A stretch of DNA of 64,000 nucleotides, taken from Bacteroidota bacterium. GTDB taxonomy: Bacteria; Bacteroidota; Bacteroidia; Chitinophagales; Saprospiraceae. Positions 3,312-53,838 of the stretch are shown piece by piece. Under the pieces are notes generated by a model, which had not been told where the DNA came from, did not search any database, and saw only the letters and a list, made by a program, of their open reading frames with translations. The stretch lies in NCBI GenBank assembly GCA_016124585.1, contig WGNL01000010.1:186001-250000 (forward strand), in the 5' to 3' direction. The position numbers and the translations under genes are program-made. Position 1 is the stretch's first letter. Every line of letters starts with the position of its first letter.

Positions 3312-6300
3312 TTACTCCACTACCACTTGCCCGAACTTCATCACCCCTTCATTTTCCAAGGAATAAAAATAGACACCTGCTGCCAGCCCATTCAGTGCCA
3401 ATTGGGTGCTTTTATCAAAGCCCACGAGGCGGATGGCACGGCCTTTTTCATCGAACAGCCGGAACTTCACCTTGCCTACCAGGTTTGTGTGGATGTTCAG
3501 CGTGCCGTTTGAGGCGACTGGGTTCGGAGAGATGGAAATCATCGGTTGCAGCGCATTGGGTTCGTTCGTCGCAGTGGACATGGGCAGTGAAATCACGAAT
3601 TGCGAAGCTTCCTCCACACCGTTTCCAGTGCCAAAAATTGCAGCACCATCCGCTCCAGTTATCACCTGTTCGGCAGGTGCATGTGGTTGCCAGGTATTGC
3701 CATCGGCACGGGGAGGGCGGGCGTATAGGTTGTAATCCGAAGCGGGCGAGCCAGCCGGTACGTTGCCAATCTCGTCGAAGCGGATACCGGATAGTTCATC
3801 GAAGCTGGGGTTGTCACCAAAATTGTGGAACACCCAATAGCTGCGGCTGAGGCTGTCGCTCACTGGGGACTGGTCAGGGTGCAGGTCGATGCGGGTTACC
3901 ACGCATTCACCATCAGGGTTTCCGTTGCTGCCACCAGGGAAGCTCATCGTCACCCCTGTTTCACCAAAGACAAGATTGCCACTGCCCGTCACGTTTTTGC
4001 GGCTGCTGACACCCGGGCCAACTGCCAAAGTTGAGACTTCCCGGTGCGCATCCCCACCGAAACTGGCGAAGCCCGTACCGATGCGGTCAAACGCTGGCCC
4101 GTCCGCTTCGTTGAACTGGACGTAGCTCCGCAAGCCGTCCGTATCCGTATGCGTGCGGGTCAGGTGCATTTCTTCCCGGATTTGTTCTTGGGTCAATGCC
4201 TTGTCGTAAAAGCAAATCTCGTCCATCTCGCCTGTGAAAAACCGCTCGCTGGAACCGCCGTCGCTGCCCAGCACCAGTGGCGAATCGAAAGCCTCGTCGG
4301 TGTGGGTCGTGTTCAGCACGGAGGCCACGCCGTTCAGGTAGAGCGTCGCTTTGTTTGGCTCGATGACCATGGCGATGTGGTTCCACTCTCCCGCTACGGG
4401 AAACAGCCCGGAATTCCACCACCAGTTCACATCGTTCCACATATAATGCAGGTCGTTGTTTTCCCCGTAATGCAGCCCTGCAATAGTGCTGCCGCCCCTC
4501 ACGATGGCAATGCCCGTGTAGGGCTTTTGGTTGCCAATGGGCTTTATCCAAGCCATGAGTGTGCAGTGGTTGCCGTTCAGGTTGAAAGGTTGGCTGTAAG
4601 AGGCGTAATCGCCGTTTCCGTCCATGACGATAGCATTGCCGGGTGTTGCCTCCGGCAATAGGCTCGTGCATTCGTCGCCCACATGCACCGTTAGGCTATC
4701 GGTGAAAACGCCCTGAGGCGTGGTCAGGGTCATCACCCCCAGCTTGTCGCCAGCCGAGTTGAAGACAACTTTGGGCGTCCTCGTGTTTTGCCCGAAAACA
4801 TACTGCACATCGTCGAATTGCCAAGACCAGGAGATATTATCGTGCATCACCACCGAGTGGTCGTCGAAGTAAAATGTGTCGGTAGGGCAGTAGCTGGTCA
4901 GCTTGTCGGCCATGGCCAATGACTGCACGGCGCTTGGCTCAAACAGCGGAGCCTCCCACACACTAGCATTCCAGCAACCTACCCGAATCAGGCCTTTTTT
5001 GTAAAAAGGTTTGAGGCGGTTCACCTCTGCGCTGAGCGGCAGCCCGTCGCTGTATGCCACCCAATCGGACATGGAATTGTTTCGGTAAAACACACCGCCC
5101 GCATTTGTGCCGAGGTAAATGCCGCCGTCCGTTCCATGCTGCGCCATCACGTTCGTGATTTGTATATTGTTCAGGGTAGGCGTGGTGATGTTCTGCCAGG
5201 TCACGCCAGCATTGGTAGTTTTGTAAACCTTCTTGCCATTTGAGCCATAAGTAACGGCTATCCAAACCACATCGGGGTCGGTGGCGCTCACGGCCATCTT
5301 GATGCGGTCGTTGTTATTGGGCAAAGGCAGTGCTGCGCAAATCTGCCACGTTTCACCAGCATCCTCGCTGCGGAACACCACGTCATCCGTGCCATTGTAC
5401 TGCGAGACGTAGATGCGGTTGGGGTCTTTCCGGCACACTTCTATCTCGTACACCTTGCGGGTCACGCCGCCGGGGAAATCGTGCAAGACCGTGAAGGTCG
5501 TGCCGCCGTCTGTGCTGCGCCAGAGTTTGTCGTCCTTGCCGAGGTACACGATGTTCCAGCATTTAGGATGCCATTCCATTTCCGAGTTTTCATAGTACGC
5601 GTAGCTCTCATTCGGCCAGGTGCCCACTGGGAAGCCTGTGACGCCGTTGCCAAAACCGGGATTGATAATCCTGCCGCCAATGTCCGAATGGTACACCTTG
5701 CGCTCTGGGCCGGGGTTCACGTAGCCGCTAGCCGCCTCTGCACCACCAATGGCGTAGTAGGTGCCTTCGGGAAAACTTTCGTGGTAGGCCATGTTGCCGT
5801 TGTGGTAGCGACCGCCCACGAGTATGTCCTCGTTCCAGCCGCTGTCAAAGCCCCAGAGGGCGCCGCCGCTGATGCCGTTGTTGCGGCCTTCGACATGTAG
5901 CCCAAAATCATTGGAGTACACCATGCCGCCGTCCGAGGAAATCCAGACATCATTGCCCACTGCTGCCGCCCATTGGATGTCAGGGTGGCGGTCGCCGGAG
6001 ATGCCTGGTGTGCCACCCACGTAGCCACCAAAGCCCGTCCAAGTGGCCCCACCATCCATGCTGCGGAACCAGGAGCAGCCGCCCGTGATGATTTGGTTGT
6101 CGTTCGAGGGGTTCACCACAATCGCTTGGTCGTAAAATCCTTGGTGAAACCAGTCCACGCCGTTGGCATCCATCAGGTTGGTGTGATTGGGGATGGAGTA
6201 GGGCGCTCCGATGGAATTGTTGGGGTTGGTGTTCGCCCAAGTAGCACCGCCGTCCGTGCTTTTGTACACCCCGATGAAGCCACCCAAATCGGCACCTTCG

Positions 6301-50068: not shown

Positions 50069-52045
50069 TTATTTCAGTACGACCATACCCAACTGCTTCA
50101 TCAGTTCATTCCTCATTTCATTCAATTTCATCTGCACTTTCAGTAAGCGAATTAGTTGTGCAGCATCGTCCTTAGCTACTTCCTTCATCTGATGCTGGTT
50201 TTTTTCACAAAGGCGGATCACTTTTCGAAGTTTGAACTGTAGTAAGGCACTCACACTGTCCTTGTTGAAATTGTCTTCTGGCTTTTTTTGCGACCTGAGA
50301 TACATTTCATGCATTTCCCAACCGGGGCTGTATTCCCAAGGGGAATGCAATAAATCAACAGCCAATTCACTGATTGTCTGATCATGGTGGCCGATGAAAT
50401 ATTGTGTAGTTACGGGTGTTTTTCCCAAAACCAACTGCATGGCCTCACGAGCGATGCGCAGATAATCAGGGTTGTCAAAATCCTCCAAAACTTCCTCAAT
50501 ATTCCCCAACACGAACTCCGCCACCGTCATGTTTTCGTTTTCGTCATATAGTTTTCCGCCTGCCTCCACTAAAATCCGGGCAATGTCCCGTTCCTGAAAT
50601 TCATGGCCAGCCGTCCGAGGCTTTGGACTGATGATGTTTGGAAAATCATCCGATTCTGGTGGTGCCTCGGATGGGAACTCACCGTCATTTTCCGGTACAA
50701 TATTGACTTTGACTTCCTGTTTTTTGCGCTTATCGAAGTCCCGTTTTTGGAGAATTTGTTTTACCGCTTTGTTCGTCTCCGATACTAGCACTTCCTCCTC
50801 CAATTCCATCACCCTGGCACATTCCTTTACGTAAAAGGAACGCTTGAACGGGTCAGGCACCCGACTGATGCTATCCACAATGTCACGAACAAGGCCTGCT
50901 TTTTTGACGGGGTCGCCTTTTGTCTCCGTCAGCAATAGGTTGGTTTTGAACAGGATAAAATCCTTAGACTCCTTGTCAATAAATTCCTGAAAAGCTGCTG
51001 CACCCACTTTTTGCAGATAACTATCGGGGTCGTCACCATCCGGAATGAGTACTACCCGTACGTTCATGTCCTGCTCCAATACCATGTCAAGGCCACGTAG
51101 GGCAGCTTTCACACCCGCCGCATCACCGTCGTACAGTATTTTTATATTTGGCGTAAAACGCTTGATAAGGGCAATTTGGCCTTCAGTGAGCGAGGTGCCA
51201 GAGCTTGCCACCACGTTTTCGATGCCGGCCTGATGGAGTGAAATCACATCCGTGTAACCTTCCACGAGTATGCATTCATCGGCTTTTCGAATGGCCGTTT
51301 TTGCATGGAATGCGCCGTAGAGGTTTTTGTTTTTGATATAAATCTCCGTTTCTGGAGAGTTGATGTACTTGGGCGCTTTGGCGTCCTTTTCCATGATGCG
51401 CCCAGCGAAGGCGATAGGTTTTCCACTCAGGTTGTGGATGGTGAACATGACCCTGTTGCGGAAAAAATCCTTGTCGTATTGCGAAGCGAGCCCCAGTTTC
51501 TTCAAAAAATCGAGCTTGTATCCCGTTTGGGTCACTTTTTTCACAAAAGCATCTTGCTCATTGGGGGCGTAGCCCAATCCAAATTTTCGTATAGTATCTT
51601 CCCGAAATCCTCGTCCTTTAAAATAGCTCAGGCCCACACTTTTACCCATATCCGTCTCGAAAAGTTGGTCTTGATAAAATTGACGTGCAAACTCATTAAG
51701 GATATAAAGGCTTTCTTCTGCTTGTTGCTGTGCTACTGCTTCAGGTGTTAGTTGGACTTCTTCGATTTCAATGCGGTATTTGCGGGCGAGGTACCGAAGC
51801 GCATCAGGGTAGGAGAGGTGCTCATGCTCCATGATAAACTTGGCGGGGTCGCCAGCTTTCCCACAACCGAAGCATTTGAAGATGTTCTTGGCTGGCGAAA
51901 CTGTAAAAGAGGGGGTCTTTTCGTTGTGGAATGGACAAAGGCCGATCATGTTCACACCCCGCCTTCGCAAGTTGACGTAGTCCTGTATCACTTCCTCGAT
52001 TTTAGCAGTTTCGAGGATTTCTTGTACTGTTTTCTGCGGAATCAA
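50069..52045 (-). CDS. dnaG: DNA primase
   Basis: 658 aa. N-terminal CHC2 zinc finger (GLCPFHNEKTPSFTV, FKCFGCGKAGD, ligands C-H-C-C) for template recognition. The RNA-polymerase domain with TOPRIM fold follows: ILVEGYTDVISLHQAG, ASSGTSLTEGQ, KILYDGDAAGVKAALRG, the acidic metal cluster. The C-terminal ~200 residues form the helical DnaB-binding region. It makes RNA primers for replication. dnaB lies 3.3 kb away on the other strand. A TACTTTTG box is at 52168-52161 on the minus strand. ATG 52045 fits the family start (IPQKTVQEILETAKIEEVI). Confidence 0.96.
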   Translation of the reverse strand: MIPQKTVQEILETAKIEEVIQDYVNLRRRGVNMIGLCPFHNEKTPSFTVSPAKNIFKCFGCGKAGDPAKFIMEHEHLSYPDALRYLARKYRIEIEEVQLTPEAVAQQQAEESLYILNEFARQFYQDQLFETDMGKSVGLSYFKGRGFREDTIRKFGLGYAPNEQDAFVKKVTQTGYKLDFLKKLGLASQYDKDFFRNRVMFTIHNLSGKPIAFAGRIMEKDAKAPKYINSPETEIYIKNKNLYGAFHAKTAIRKADECILVEGYTDVISLHQAGIENVVASSGTSLTEGQIALIKRFTPNIKILYDGDAAGVKAALRGLDMVLEQDMNVRVVLIPDGDDPDSYLQKVGAAAFQEFIDKESKDFILFKTNLLLTETKGDPVKKAGLVRDIVDSISRVPDPFKRSFYVKECARVMELEEEVLVSETNKAVKQILQKRDFDKRKKQEVKVNIVPENDGEFPSEAPPESDDFPNIISPKPRTAGHEFQERDIARILVEAGGKLYDENENMTVAEFVLGNIEEVLEDFDNPDYLRIAREAMQLVLGKTPVTTQYFIGHHDQTISELAVDLLHSPWEYSPGWEMHEMYLRSQKKPEDNFNKDSVSALLQFKLRKVIRLCEKNQHQMKEVAKDDAAQLIRLLKVQMKLNEMRNELMKQLGMVVLK

Positions 52046-52168: not shown

Positions 52169-52349
52169 GTTTATTTTTAAAAATCGGAATAACTCGCATG
52201 TTTGTTGCCACTTCGTTCACGGCCTGTTTTTTCTCGATACTTTGGCCGACCACACTAACGGGAACTTACCAACTGAGAATCAGCTATTTATAATTGAATT
52301 AGAATTTTTTTTTTCGAAAGTTGTGCTTTCGGTGTGTGAAGTTTTTGGG

Positions 52350-52388
52350 GTTTGTTCATCTATAGGTTGTCTTTAACGATGAACAAAC
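52350..52388. other. isolated perfect stem-loop
   Basis: GTTTGTTCATC (52350-52360) pairs perfectly with GATGAACAAAC (52378-52388) around a 17-base loop. No T-run follows. It precedes the three tandem hairpin repeats and may belong to the first transcript. Confidence 0.6.
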
Positions 52389-52514
52389 TGAAAAGCGAAA
52401 AGACATCGCAAAGCGAAAAAACAAGGACTAATGGGAAGGCTTAAAAACGAATTTTTTCCTACCGAAGAAGGACGAATTCCTTTACTACACAACATCATTT
52501 TACCAAAAGAAATA

Positions 52515-52575
52515 ATTGGGTGTTCTCATAGTGTGTGGGCTGCCCCGCTACCTGGTGTGGTTGGGGCAGTTTTTT
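52515..52575 (+). ncRNA. putative structured RNA, copy 1 of 3
   Basis: A conserved ~25-nt stretch (52515-52539, core GGGTGTTCT then ATAGTGTGTGGG) is followed immediately by the stem CTGCCCC (52540-52546) / GGGGCAG (52563-52569) and TTTTTT on the + strand. Transcript start unknown. No protein can be supported across the copies, since frame and stops differ. Confidence 0.45.
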
Positions 52576-52642
52576 CACCATGCTTTCAGCATTGAACCTT
52601 TAAAACTTTCGAGTTGAAAGCAGCTTGAACGTGAAAGGTATT

Positions 52643-52650
52643 TAGGTTTG
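52643..52650 (+). promoter_or_regulatory. possible -7 box TAGGTTTG for the second structured RNA
   Basis: Exact TAnnTTTG on the + strand between copies 1 and 2. A transcript from about 52656 to the T-run near 52799 would be ~145 nt. No good -33 element. Confidence 0.35.
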
Positions 52651-52736
52651 GTTTGAAATAAGATAGTTCTGAACCCGAACGTTTAGTTGAGACTTTCTAA
52701 CTCAATGTTTAAATTCAGTGTTCAAAACAAAAACAT

Positions 52737-52799
52737 ATTGGGTGTTCTCATAGTGTGTGGGACCAGCCTGAAGCCCTCTGGGGTGTAGGGCTGGTTTTT
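52737..52799 (+). ncRNA. putative structured RNA, copy 2 of 3
   Basis: The conserved ~25-nt stretch (52737-52761) is identical to copy 1. The stem is ACCAGCC (52762-52768) / GGCTGGT (52789-52795), entirely different bases from copy 1 but equally paired, then TTTTC. An alternative inner stem AGCCCT/AGGGCT (52772-52777, 52787-52792) could compete. Confidence 0.45.
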
Positions 52800-52811
52800 C
52801 TTTGTCTAAAT

Positions 52812-52874
52812 AGTGGGTGTTCTAATAGTGTGTGGGACTACCCTGAAACCTTCGGGCGGTAGGGGTAGTTTTCT
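52812..52874 (+). ncRNA. putative structured RNA, copy 3 of 3
   Basis: The conserved stretch (52812-52836) differs from the other two at two positions, TTCTAATAG for TTCTCATAG and AGTGGG for ATTGGG. The stem is ACTACCC (52837-52843) / GGGTAGT (52863-52869), a third stem sequence, with an inner CC-TTCG-GG hairpin, then TTTCTTT. Only 16 nt separate it from copy 2's T-run, so it has no room for its own promoter. Confidence 0.45.
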
Positions 52875-52905
52875 TTAACTTGAACATCTTGTAGGATATA
52901 AAATC

Positions 52906-52942
52906 AAAAGCCCTGGCGATTCAAATCGTCAGGGCTTTTTTT
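52906..52942. terminator. bidirectional terminator at the dapD 3' end
   Basis: A 15-bp stem (52906-52920 with 52925-52939, one G-T pair), loop TCAA, T-run on the + strand and on the minus strand TTTTGATTTT. It closes dapD (-) and any rightward transcript from the structured repeats (+). Confidence 0.85.
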
Positions 52943-52961: not shown

Positions 52962-53777
52962 TTAAACAGCTACGCCATATTCCCGAAGCGCACTGTTCAA
53001 TGATACTTTCTTATCGGTACTTTCCGTCCGTTTCCCAATAATTAAAGCACAGGCTACCTGATATTCACCAGCAGGGAATTTTTTGGCATAAGTGCCAGGG
53101 ATAACTACAGAACGTGCAGGCACACGACCTTTGTGGATGATAGGTTCAGGCCCAGTCACATCAATAATATGAGTCGATTGAGTAAGTACCACATTAGCGC
53201 CAAGCACACATTCACGCTCTACCCTAACACCCTCCACCACAATGCAGCGTGAGCCAATAAAACATTCATCTTCGATAATGGTCGGGGCGGCTTGTGGTGG
53301 CTCCAAAACGCCGCCAATGCCCACGCCGCCGCTCAGGTGCACGTTTTTGCCGATTTGGGCGCAGGAGCCGACTGTGGCCCATGTGTCCACCATGGTACCT
53401 GCACCAACATATGCACCGATGTTTACGTAGCTGGGCATCATAATTACCCCAGGTTCGAGAAAGCATCCGTGTCTAGCAATGGCATGTGGCACTACTCGTA
53501 CACCTTGCGCAGCATAGCCTTTTTTCAGTGGGATTTTATCGTGAAATTCAAATGGTGGCACTTCGATCGTCTCCATTTTTTGAATGGGAAAATAAAGAAT
53601 GACAGCTTTTTTTACCCAATTGTTCACCTTCCATTCACCGTTGTCTGTGGGTTCGGCGACTCGCAATTTCCCTGTGTCAAGCAAATTGACGACCTGCCGA
53701 ATAGCCTCCTGTACGGGTTTGTCATTGAGCATAGAACGGTCTTCCCATGCCGAGTTGATGATGTTTTCCAAATTCAT
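52962..53777 (-). CDS. dapD: tetrahydrodipicolinate N-succinyltransferase
   Basis: 271 aa from ATG 53777 (MNLENIINSAWEDRSM); the longer frame to 53834 reads through an inverted repeat. The N-terminal helical domain is followed by hexapeptide beta-helix turns with the DapD signature VPHAIARHGCFLEPGVIMMP, YVGAGTMVDTWATVGSCAQIG, and HLSGGVGIGGVLEP with QAAPTIIEDECFIGSRC. It succinylates tetrahydrodipicolinate in the lysine/diaminopimelate pathway, needed for peptidoglycan. Normal length. It follows the SPOR gene after the inverted repeat 53790-53838. Confidence 0.96.
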   Translation of the reverse strand: MNLENIINSAWEDRSMLNDKPVQEAIRQVVNLLDTGKLRVAEPTDNGEWKVNNWVKKAVILYFPIQKMETIEVPPFEFHDKIPLKKGYAAQGVRVVPHAIARHGCFLEPGVIMMPSYVNIGAYVGAGTMVDTWATVGSCAQIGKNVHLSGGVGIGGVLEPPQAAPTIIEDECFIGSRCIVVEGVRVERECVLGANVVLTQSTHIIDVTGPEPIIHKGRVPARSVVIPGTYAKKFPAGEYQVACALIIGKRTESTDKKVSLNSALREYGVAV

Positions 53778-53789
53778 GTTTAGGAAATG

Positions 53790-53838
53790 AGGGATGAAGC
53801 ATGAGGGAGAGAAAATTAATCCCTCATACTTCATCCCT
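53790..53838. repeat. inverted repeat of GAGGGATGA words between the SPOR gene and dapD
   Basis: 19-bp arms (53790-53808, 53820-53838, one mismatch), loop of 11. Built from the same ATGAGGGA / TCATCCCT words as the array at 45729. It overlaps the stop codon of the SPOR gene by two bases. It lacks a T-run on the minus strand. Confidence 0.75.

Follow-up and report, generated by a model that had tools for sequence, protein, structure and literature searches.

A tandem array of conserved block-plus-hairpin elements beside dnaG and a probable family of regulatory small RNAs in Saprospiraceae

Three tandem copies between dnaG and dapD

The intergenic region separating dnaG from dapD was examined within a 64-kb stretch of Saprospiraceae DNA, referred to below as the window. 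Both genes are carried by the minus strand. Between them, three copies of a 22-nt block, GGGTGTTCT-N-ATAGTGTGTGGG, are found on the plus strand, where they point away from dnaG and toward the 3' end of dapD (Table 1). The mean number of such blocks in 100 shuffles of the window is 0.00, and no further block is present in the window, even when up to 3 mismatches are allowed. An original prediction, made from the letters of this stretch, had reported three tandem copies, each followed by a hairpin, between two minus-strand genes. This description is borne out in its coordinates, stems and T-runs; its starts at 52515, 52737 and 52812 designate the same three copies, numbered from 3 nt upstream. 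Its comparison of the copies is equally correct. Copies 1 and 2 are identical over all 25 nt and copy 3 departs from them by two changes, a G for T just before GGG and an A for C at the variable base.

Every copy runs straight into a terminator-like hairpin with a T-run. The hairpins themselves occupy positions 52540-52569 (then TTTTTT), 52762-52795 (with TTTTT) and 52837-52869 (with TTTT), and the spacer between the copy-2 T-run and copy 3 measures 15 nt. Compared with shuffled sequences, the folding energy is better for copy 1 (z -3.38) and copy 2 (z -3.45) and not better for copy 3 (z 0.09). The perfect stem-loop also reported at 52350-52388 is indeed present. It was rejected as a member of the family, being near-perfect in only 2 of 13 aligned genus sequences, the window and L024, and it overlaps a conserved block considered below as a putative promoter.

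Table 1. Features of the dnaG-dapD region, in window coordinates.
Feature	Position	Strand	Basis
dnaG (DNA primase), divergent neighbour with conserved linkage	50069..52045	-	Pfam Zn_ribbon_DnaG, DNAG_N, Toprim
Putative array promoter, TGTGAAGTTTT ... CATCTATA	52335..52364	+	Conserved block in 13 aligned genus sequences
Perfect stem-loop, overlapping the putative promoter/start	52350..52388	.	Not conserved in genus alignment
Conserved block, copy 1	52518..52539	+	Pattern match, alignment
Terminator-like hairpin and T-run (6), copy 1	52540..52575	+	Sequence, folding energy
Conserved block, copy 2	52740..52761	+	Pattern match, alignment
Terminator-like hairpin and T-run (5), copy 2	52762..52799	+	Sequence, folding energy
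Conserved block, copy 3, A at variable base	52815..52836	+	Pattern match, genus search
Terminator-like hairpin and T-run (4), copy 3	52837..52872	+	Sequence
Two-way terminator-like hairpin separating the array from the dapD 3' end	52906..52942	.	Read from sequence
dapD (tetrahydrodipicolinate succinyltransferase), convergent neighbour	52962..53834	-	Pfam THDPS_N_2, Hexapep

Conservation and synteny in Saprospiraceae

The block followed by its hairpin recurs across Saprospiraceae, a large family of aquatic bacteria, usually divergent from dnaG. It was detected in all 14 genomes of the genus that were searched, 12 of which possess a copy with A at the variable base. A different contig of the genome analysed here carries a fourth copy, which is convergent with a phosphoribosyltransferase gene. 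With up to 3 mismatches, 89 of 199 genomes of a family sample gave a match, compared with 21 of 199 for the reversed pattern (control counted by hand). An exact 19-mer scan of a species collection returned at least 115 stretches. Among the 80 listed, 79 bear Bacteroidota titles (Saprospiraceae, Lewinella, Neolewinella, Flavilitoribacter, Phaeodactylibacter and others) and one is titled Robiginitomaculum. Under stricter search filters, model R1 matched 2 of 296 genomes of a class sample, both Saprospiraceae, and 21 of 198 genomes of an order sample, 19 of them in the family and two, weak, outside it.

A divergent dnaG lies within 2.5 kb of the first copy in 54 of the 80 listed scan loci. The other 26 consist of 7 loci too short to tell and 19 devoid of a divergent dnaG; the latter include second loci such as L276, which is located on the same contig as L018, an orthologue of the fourth copy described above. 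The stretch titled Robiginitomaculum, a MAG contig (L266), carries the block and shows no dnaG match; no plasmid match was obtained for part of it, and it is perhaps mis-binned.

Anatomy and covariation

Alignment A1 comprises 69 of the 76 distinct copies; of the seven left out, two differ inside the block. It contains 14 invariant columns, every one in the block, an invariance that is partly due to selection, since the block itself served as the pattern by which the copies were collected. Members identified subsequently at greater distance are less conserved, with GGTGTTCTCATAGTGTT in genus g45 and AGTTTTCTCATAGTATG in L177. The consensus stem of the 69 copies is paired in 88.4% of its cells and accumulates 42 double changes, compared with 10.4 in shuffles and 9-17 when the stem is slid. 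Stem pairs showing at least one double change number 5, which does not exceed the shuffles, 96 of 500 of which reach this count. The stem sequences differ between copies and between genera, and are near-constant among the genus orthologues of copy 2 and among those of copy 3. The original prediction of a paired part conserved in structure only is to be corrected: within the genus the orthologous copies 2 and 3 nearly keep their stem sequence. Further copies with a conserved part and a covarying stem, named as support at the outset, do recur across Saprospiraceae.

A search of Rfam 15, proposed together with a covariance model when the copies were first described, yielded no match at the gathering cut-off in the window and in 16 related loci. 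The best sub-threshold match, RF04177 BTnc201 to copy 1 (28.7 bits, E 0.0036-0.006, for a gathering score of 105), leans on copy-1 loop letters that the orthologues do not keep; it is probably due to chance and was rejected as an identity. Other matches at permissive thresholds were chance-like only. That the elements constitute a real RNA family can be held with high confidence, and very probably this is an uncatalogued family of regulatory small RNAs.

A second sub-family with the same core

The core TTCTCATAGTNTG is likewise found in other sRNA-like arrays, which form a second set without linkage to the first and occur in this genome too. The copies of this sub-family 2, reached through weak model matches, read AGTT-TTCTCATAGT-ATGTTT. 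The pattern TTCTCATAGTNTG-N(15-45)-TTTTT occurs in 129 of 199 family genomes and in 78 of 112 genera, with a control match in 13 genomes (control counted by hand). In the class sample, the same pattern occurs in 15 of 395 genomes. Twelve of these belong to the 389 genomes outside Saprospiraceae, among which 17 have a control match, and the 12 show no hairpin by eye. As judged from the sequence, several predicted RNAs per genome share one conserved unpaired segment and a terminator, the arrangement by which sibling sRNAs are recognized.

In this genome, sub-family 2 is found at G000:C35 (three copies) and G000:C23. The first of these arrays (L205, G000:C35:417000-427500, minus strand, copies at 4884, about 5335 and 5634) is located downstream of a LytS-type kinase and a LytTR regulator. 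Such a neighbourhood is recurrent: in 7 of the 20 sub-family-2 loci fetched there is a gene cluster of which the member tested proved to be a TPR/LytS-type kinase, and a second cluster, with a LytTR regulator as the member tested, accompanies it in 6 of the 7. Both are present in L177 too.

The sequences upstream of the copies are informative as well. An exact TAnnTTTG is located within 28 nt upstream of 13 of 32 sub-family-2 copies (3% in shuffles), 4 of 21 TTAGGG-type copies and 1 of 63 main dnaG-type copies, and in genus g45 a -7 box directly precedes the block, as in sub-family 2. Further upstream of sub-family-2 copies, C[CG]TAA occurs in 15 of 27 cases for 2.47 expected. TAnnTTTG, a -7-type box, is taken here to be the sigma-ABfr promoter motif, and C[CG]TAA presumably represents a LytTR site. 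Since the -7-type box is often just upstream, the core should be the 5' end of the sub-family-2 RNA.

Probable transcription of the dnaG-side array

In 13 aligned genus sequences, a conserved block precedes copy 1 at a distance of about 150-190 nt. At its second element most relatives in the genus have CGTCTTA-like letters, and the window has CATCTATA, one letter off. Of 95 distinct first copies with a divergent dnaG, 24 are preceded by CGTCT[AT][AT]A and 34 by the shorter CGTCT[AT]; the respective counts are 0 and 6 on the reverse strand, and 2.1 and 10.5 in shuffles. The CGTCT-type motif is presumed to be an ECF-type promoter. No conserved promoter was detected in the 110 nt aligned, with gaps, upstream of copy 2 (13 sequences) or copy 3 (11 sequences), and the ungapped identity upstream of these copies is at chance (0.25-0.27) beyond 10-20 nt.

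Read-through by a single transcript predicts that an array ends with its strongest terminator. Across 29 dnaG-type arrays, the final T-run is indeed longer than those of the 49 internal copies (6.86 vs 5.57), a difference reached by 1 of 5000 permutations within arrays, and in 10 sub-family-2 arrays it is not (7.90 vs 7.53; 1900 of 5000 permutations); in both cases, arrays of one genus are not independent and the last copy may be misassigned at contig ends or where changed copies were missed. The T-runs of the window (6, 5 and 4) run against this trend, and the dapD-side hairpin lies just beyond them. From the promoter and T-run data, we infer that the dnaG-side array is one leaky transcript carrying several identical modules, which would be cut before each block. 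Of the original prediction, the family of small RNAs is well supported by its recurrence, its stem covariation, the core at unlinked loci and the lack of an Rfam match, and it is doubtful that copies 2 and 3 stand alone. A sigma-54-like sequence (TGGCAC...TTGC) was also noticed by eye upstream of the block in two genera (L063:4043 and L074:4015), and sigma-54-like boxes, again by eye, in L034 and L053.

A model for sibling regulatory RNAs

The explanation retained here, to which a probability of about one half is assigned, is that the array encodes Saprospiraceae sibling regulatory RNAs, produced from a leaky transcript, complemented by a second set on the side of LytTR genes, and pairing in trans with mRNAs. 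Each module would consist of a near-invariant single-stranded segment (core UUCUNAUAGUNUG) and an intrinsic-terminator hairpin. One promoter upstream of the first dnaG-side copy would produce a transcript that reads through the weaker internal terminators and is subsequently cleaved within the AU-rich segment preceding GGG, releasing several RNAs of about 60 nt that start with the same seed. In the unlinked set, often beside a LytS/LytTR pair, each copy would have its own promoter and the core would form the RNA 5' end. Different signals could feed the same output through these two wirings. The RNAs would most likely act in trans, the exposed core pairing with mRNAs in the vicinity of the start codon.

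The most ambitious form of this proposal, a single RNA output throughout the family with an ECF-driven leaky dnaG-side transcript processed into identical seed RNAs and a second array in which LytTR controls a separate promoter for every copy, is rather unlikely to hold in full. If it did, the dose of a single seed would depend on the number of copies and on the strength of their terminators, in bacteria without detectable Hfq. With its core in 78 of the 112 sampled genera and its common dnaG address, the family offers a way to approach RNA regulation in bacteria in which Hfq was searched for and not detected. Its arrays would also show naturally whether a single promoter, by read-through of terminators, can give rise to several copies of an sRNA. 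To our knowledge, the small RNAs of Bacteroidota outside Bacteroides are little described, and a search of part of the literature returned no paper on those of Saprospiraceae.

Searches for targets and the main rival

The complement of the core, ACUAUGAGAA, could span a start codon. With at most 1 mismatch, its matches in 4 genomes, counted by hand minus the family copies, are above the reversed control in one only, G019 (6 vs 0); the others gave 15 vs 14 (G000), 14 vs 15 (G074) and about 16 vs 26 (G103). No core-complement site was found conserved at orthologous genes in these searches. With at most 3 mismatches, the 22-mer retrieves only the four copies in this genome, and no full-length complement target was found. 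A first test of pairing with start regions was biased by the inclusion of loci fetched for a pattern match, and was repeated on 713 genes without those loci. Pairing of at least 10 nt was then found in 3 genes, two of them orthologues, a result reached by 3 of 200 control seeds; the remaining thresholds were reached by 21-127 of 200, and a control within gene interiors gave a similarly low figure for the second seed, 5 of 200. The complementarity to mRNA start regions suggested at the outset thus shows no convincing enrichment in these 713 genes, and the common target anticipated for the exposed sequence was looked for in the start-region and complement searches and not found. Many of the start-codon matches fall in exported proteins; this was discounted as evidence, because MRK/MKK starts are usual for signal peptides. 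Pairing with dnaG itself was rejected, the longest match being 8 nt among 70 of 81 dnaG start regions listed; in one further dnaG (L289), 11 nt match the sub-family-2 seed (start codons guessed in all cases). Regarding RNA-binding proteins, no Hfq was detected among 20 genomes; RRM proteins were detected in 9 of 11, and this genome encodes three.

Pairing with mRNAs is the favoured, though presumptive, mechanism, and its main rival is protein titration. CsrB and CsrC titrate CsrA in this manner. Here, the block would bind a sequence-specific RNA-binding protein, for example an RRM protein, and the arrays would act as multi-site decoys. A near-invariant block next to variable stems, several copies per genome, also in tandem, the presence of RRM proteins and target searches that gave no mRNA are all compatible with such a decoy. 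It nevertheless appears less probable than pairing, while deserving serious attention: no binding protein was found, and in sub-family 2 each short RNA is predicted to begin with the core and to have a single site, a layout that fits seed-type sRNAs rather than known decoys.

The elements might also belong to the 3' ends of longer transcripts, the block tuning termination or protecting the end, with no free small RNA. Indeed, the block precedes a hairpin in every copy gathered, and copy 1 would end a transcript of about 200 nt if the putative promoter is used. This is unlikely, as the -7 box directly before the block in sub-family 2 and g45 would leave nothing else in the transcript, and as these genomes have thousands of ordinary terminators without the block, the pattern giving few matches per genome. 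A function at the DNA level, as protein-binding repeats or mobile-element ends, would agree with repeated, strand-consistent copies, but is very improbable given the fixed dnaG-side address across many genera, the compensated stems, the strand constant relative to hairpin and T-run, and the absence of any mobile gene among 10 neighbour proteins tested with Pfam. Finally, a small protein-coding gene is scarcely credible: the ATG-started frame across copy 1 that ends in the block as ...NWVFS* in some genus members (by eye) reads ...GCSHSVW in others (window ORF 52431-52595), so that orthologues have two different frames, by eye no such frame is apparent ahead of copies 2 and 3 or in most other genera, and the nucleotides are conserved at all codon positions.

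Comparison with known small RNA systems

Several systems resemble the sibling RNAs proposed here. In enterobacteria, RybB and MicA are sigma-E-dependent seed sRNAs, present in single copy and dependent on Hfq; the likeness would lie in an ECF-type promoter and a conserved 5' seed. The Qrr RNAs of Vibrio are several near-identical seed sRNAs under a two-component regulator. The LhrC1-5 RNAs of Listeria are in the same situation (PMC5880928). Sub-family 2, beside LytS/LytTR, seems comparable to both, the link to the regulator being drawn from gene neighbourhood and an upstream motif only.

A close parallel is provided by FopS/GibS of Bacteroides thetaiotaomicron (PMC11697453). The 5' seed of FopS blocks the start regions of outer-membrane transporter mRNAs, and the RRM protein RbpB binds FopS and relieves the block (PMC11697453). 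Like the RNAs predicted here, these belong to Bacteroidota, are multicopy and about 65-70 nt long, and combine a common 5' seed with a variable 3' part (PMC11697453). Their sigma-ABfr promoters are to be compared with the TAnnTTTG box of sub-family 2, and their binding by an RRM protein, with no use of an Hfq-type chaperone (PMC11697453), with the present genomes, where RRM proteins were detected and Hfq was not. However, FopS is described from dispersed loci with their own promoters (PMC11697453), whereas the dnaG-type copies are in tandem, apparently without internal promoters. FopS pairs with susC-type mRNA starts (PMC11697453); over the 713 genes here, start-region pairing showed no convincing enrichment. 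In the class sample, the matches of model R1 are confined to two Saprospiraceae genomes, which would bear on the FopS seed indirectly at most. By analogy, sibling regulatory RNAs acting like FopS or LhrC would be the best reading of the family.

Variant copies

Some loci depart from the two main types. At L206:3839 (G000:C23), a single core copy with a terminator lies beside a HemD-like gene (uroporphyrinogen-III synthase), and L224 looks like its counterpart in another genus. A variant block enclosed in a larger, differently paired hairpin occurs at L077:4001, L121:4056 and L122:2597, in a gene context common to two genera, and is probably a different element. A third variant, TTCTCATAGTCTG, was observed at L214:3960, L216:4023 and L217:3066, beside a glucosaminidase gene and, in L214, also an HTH protein.
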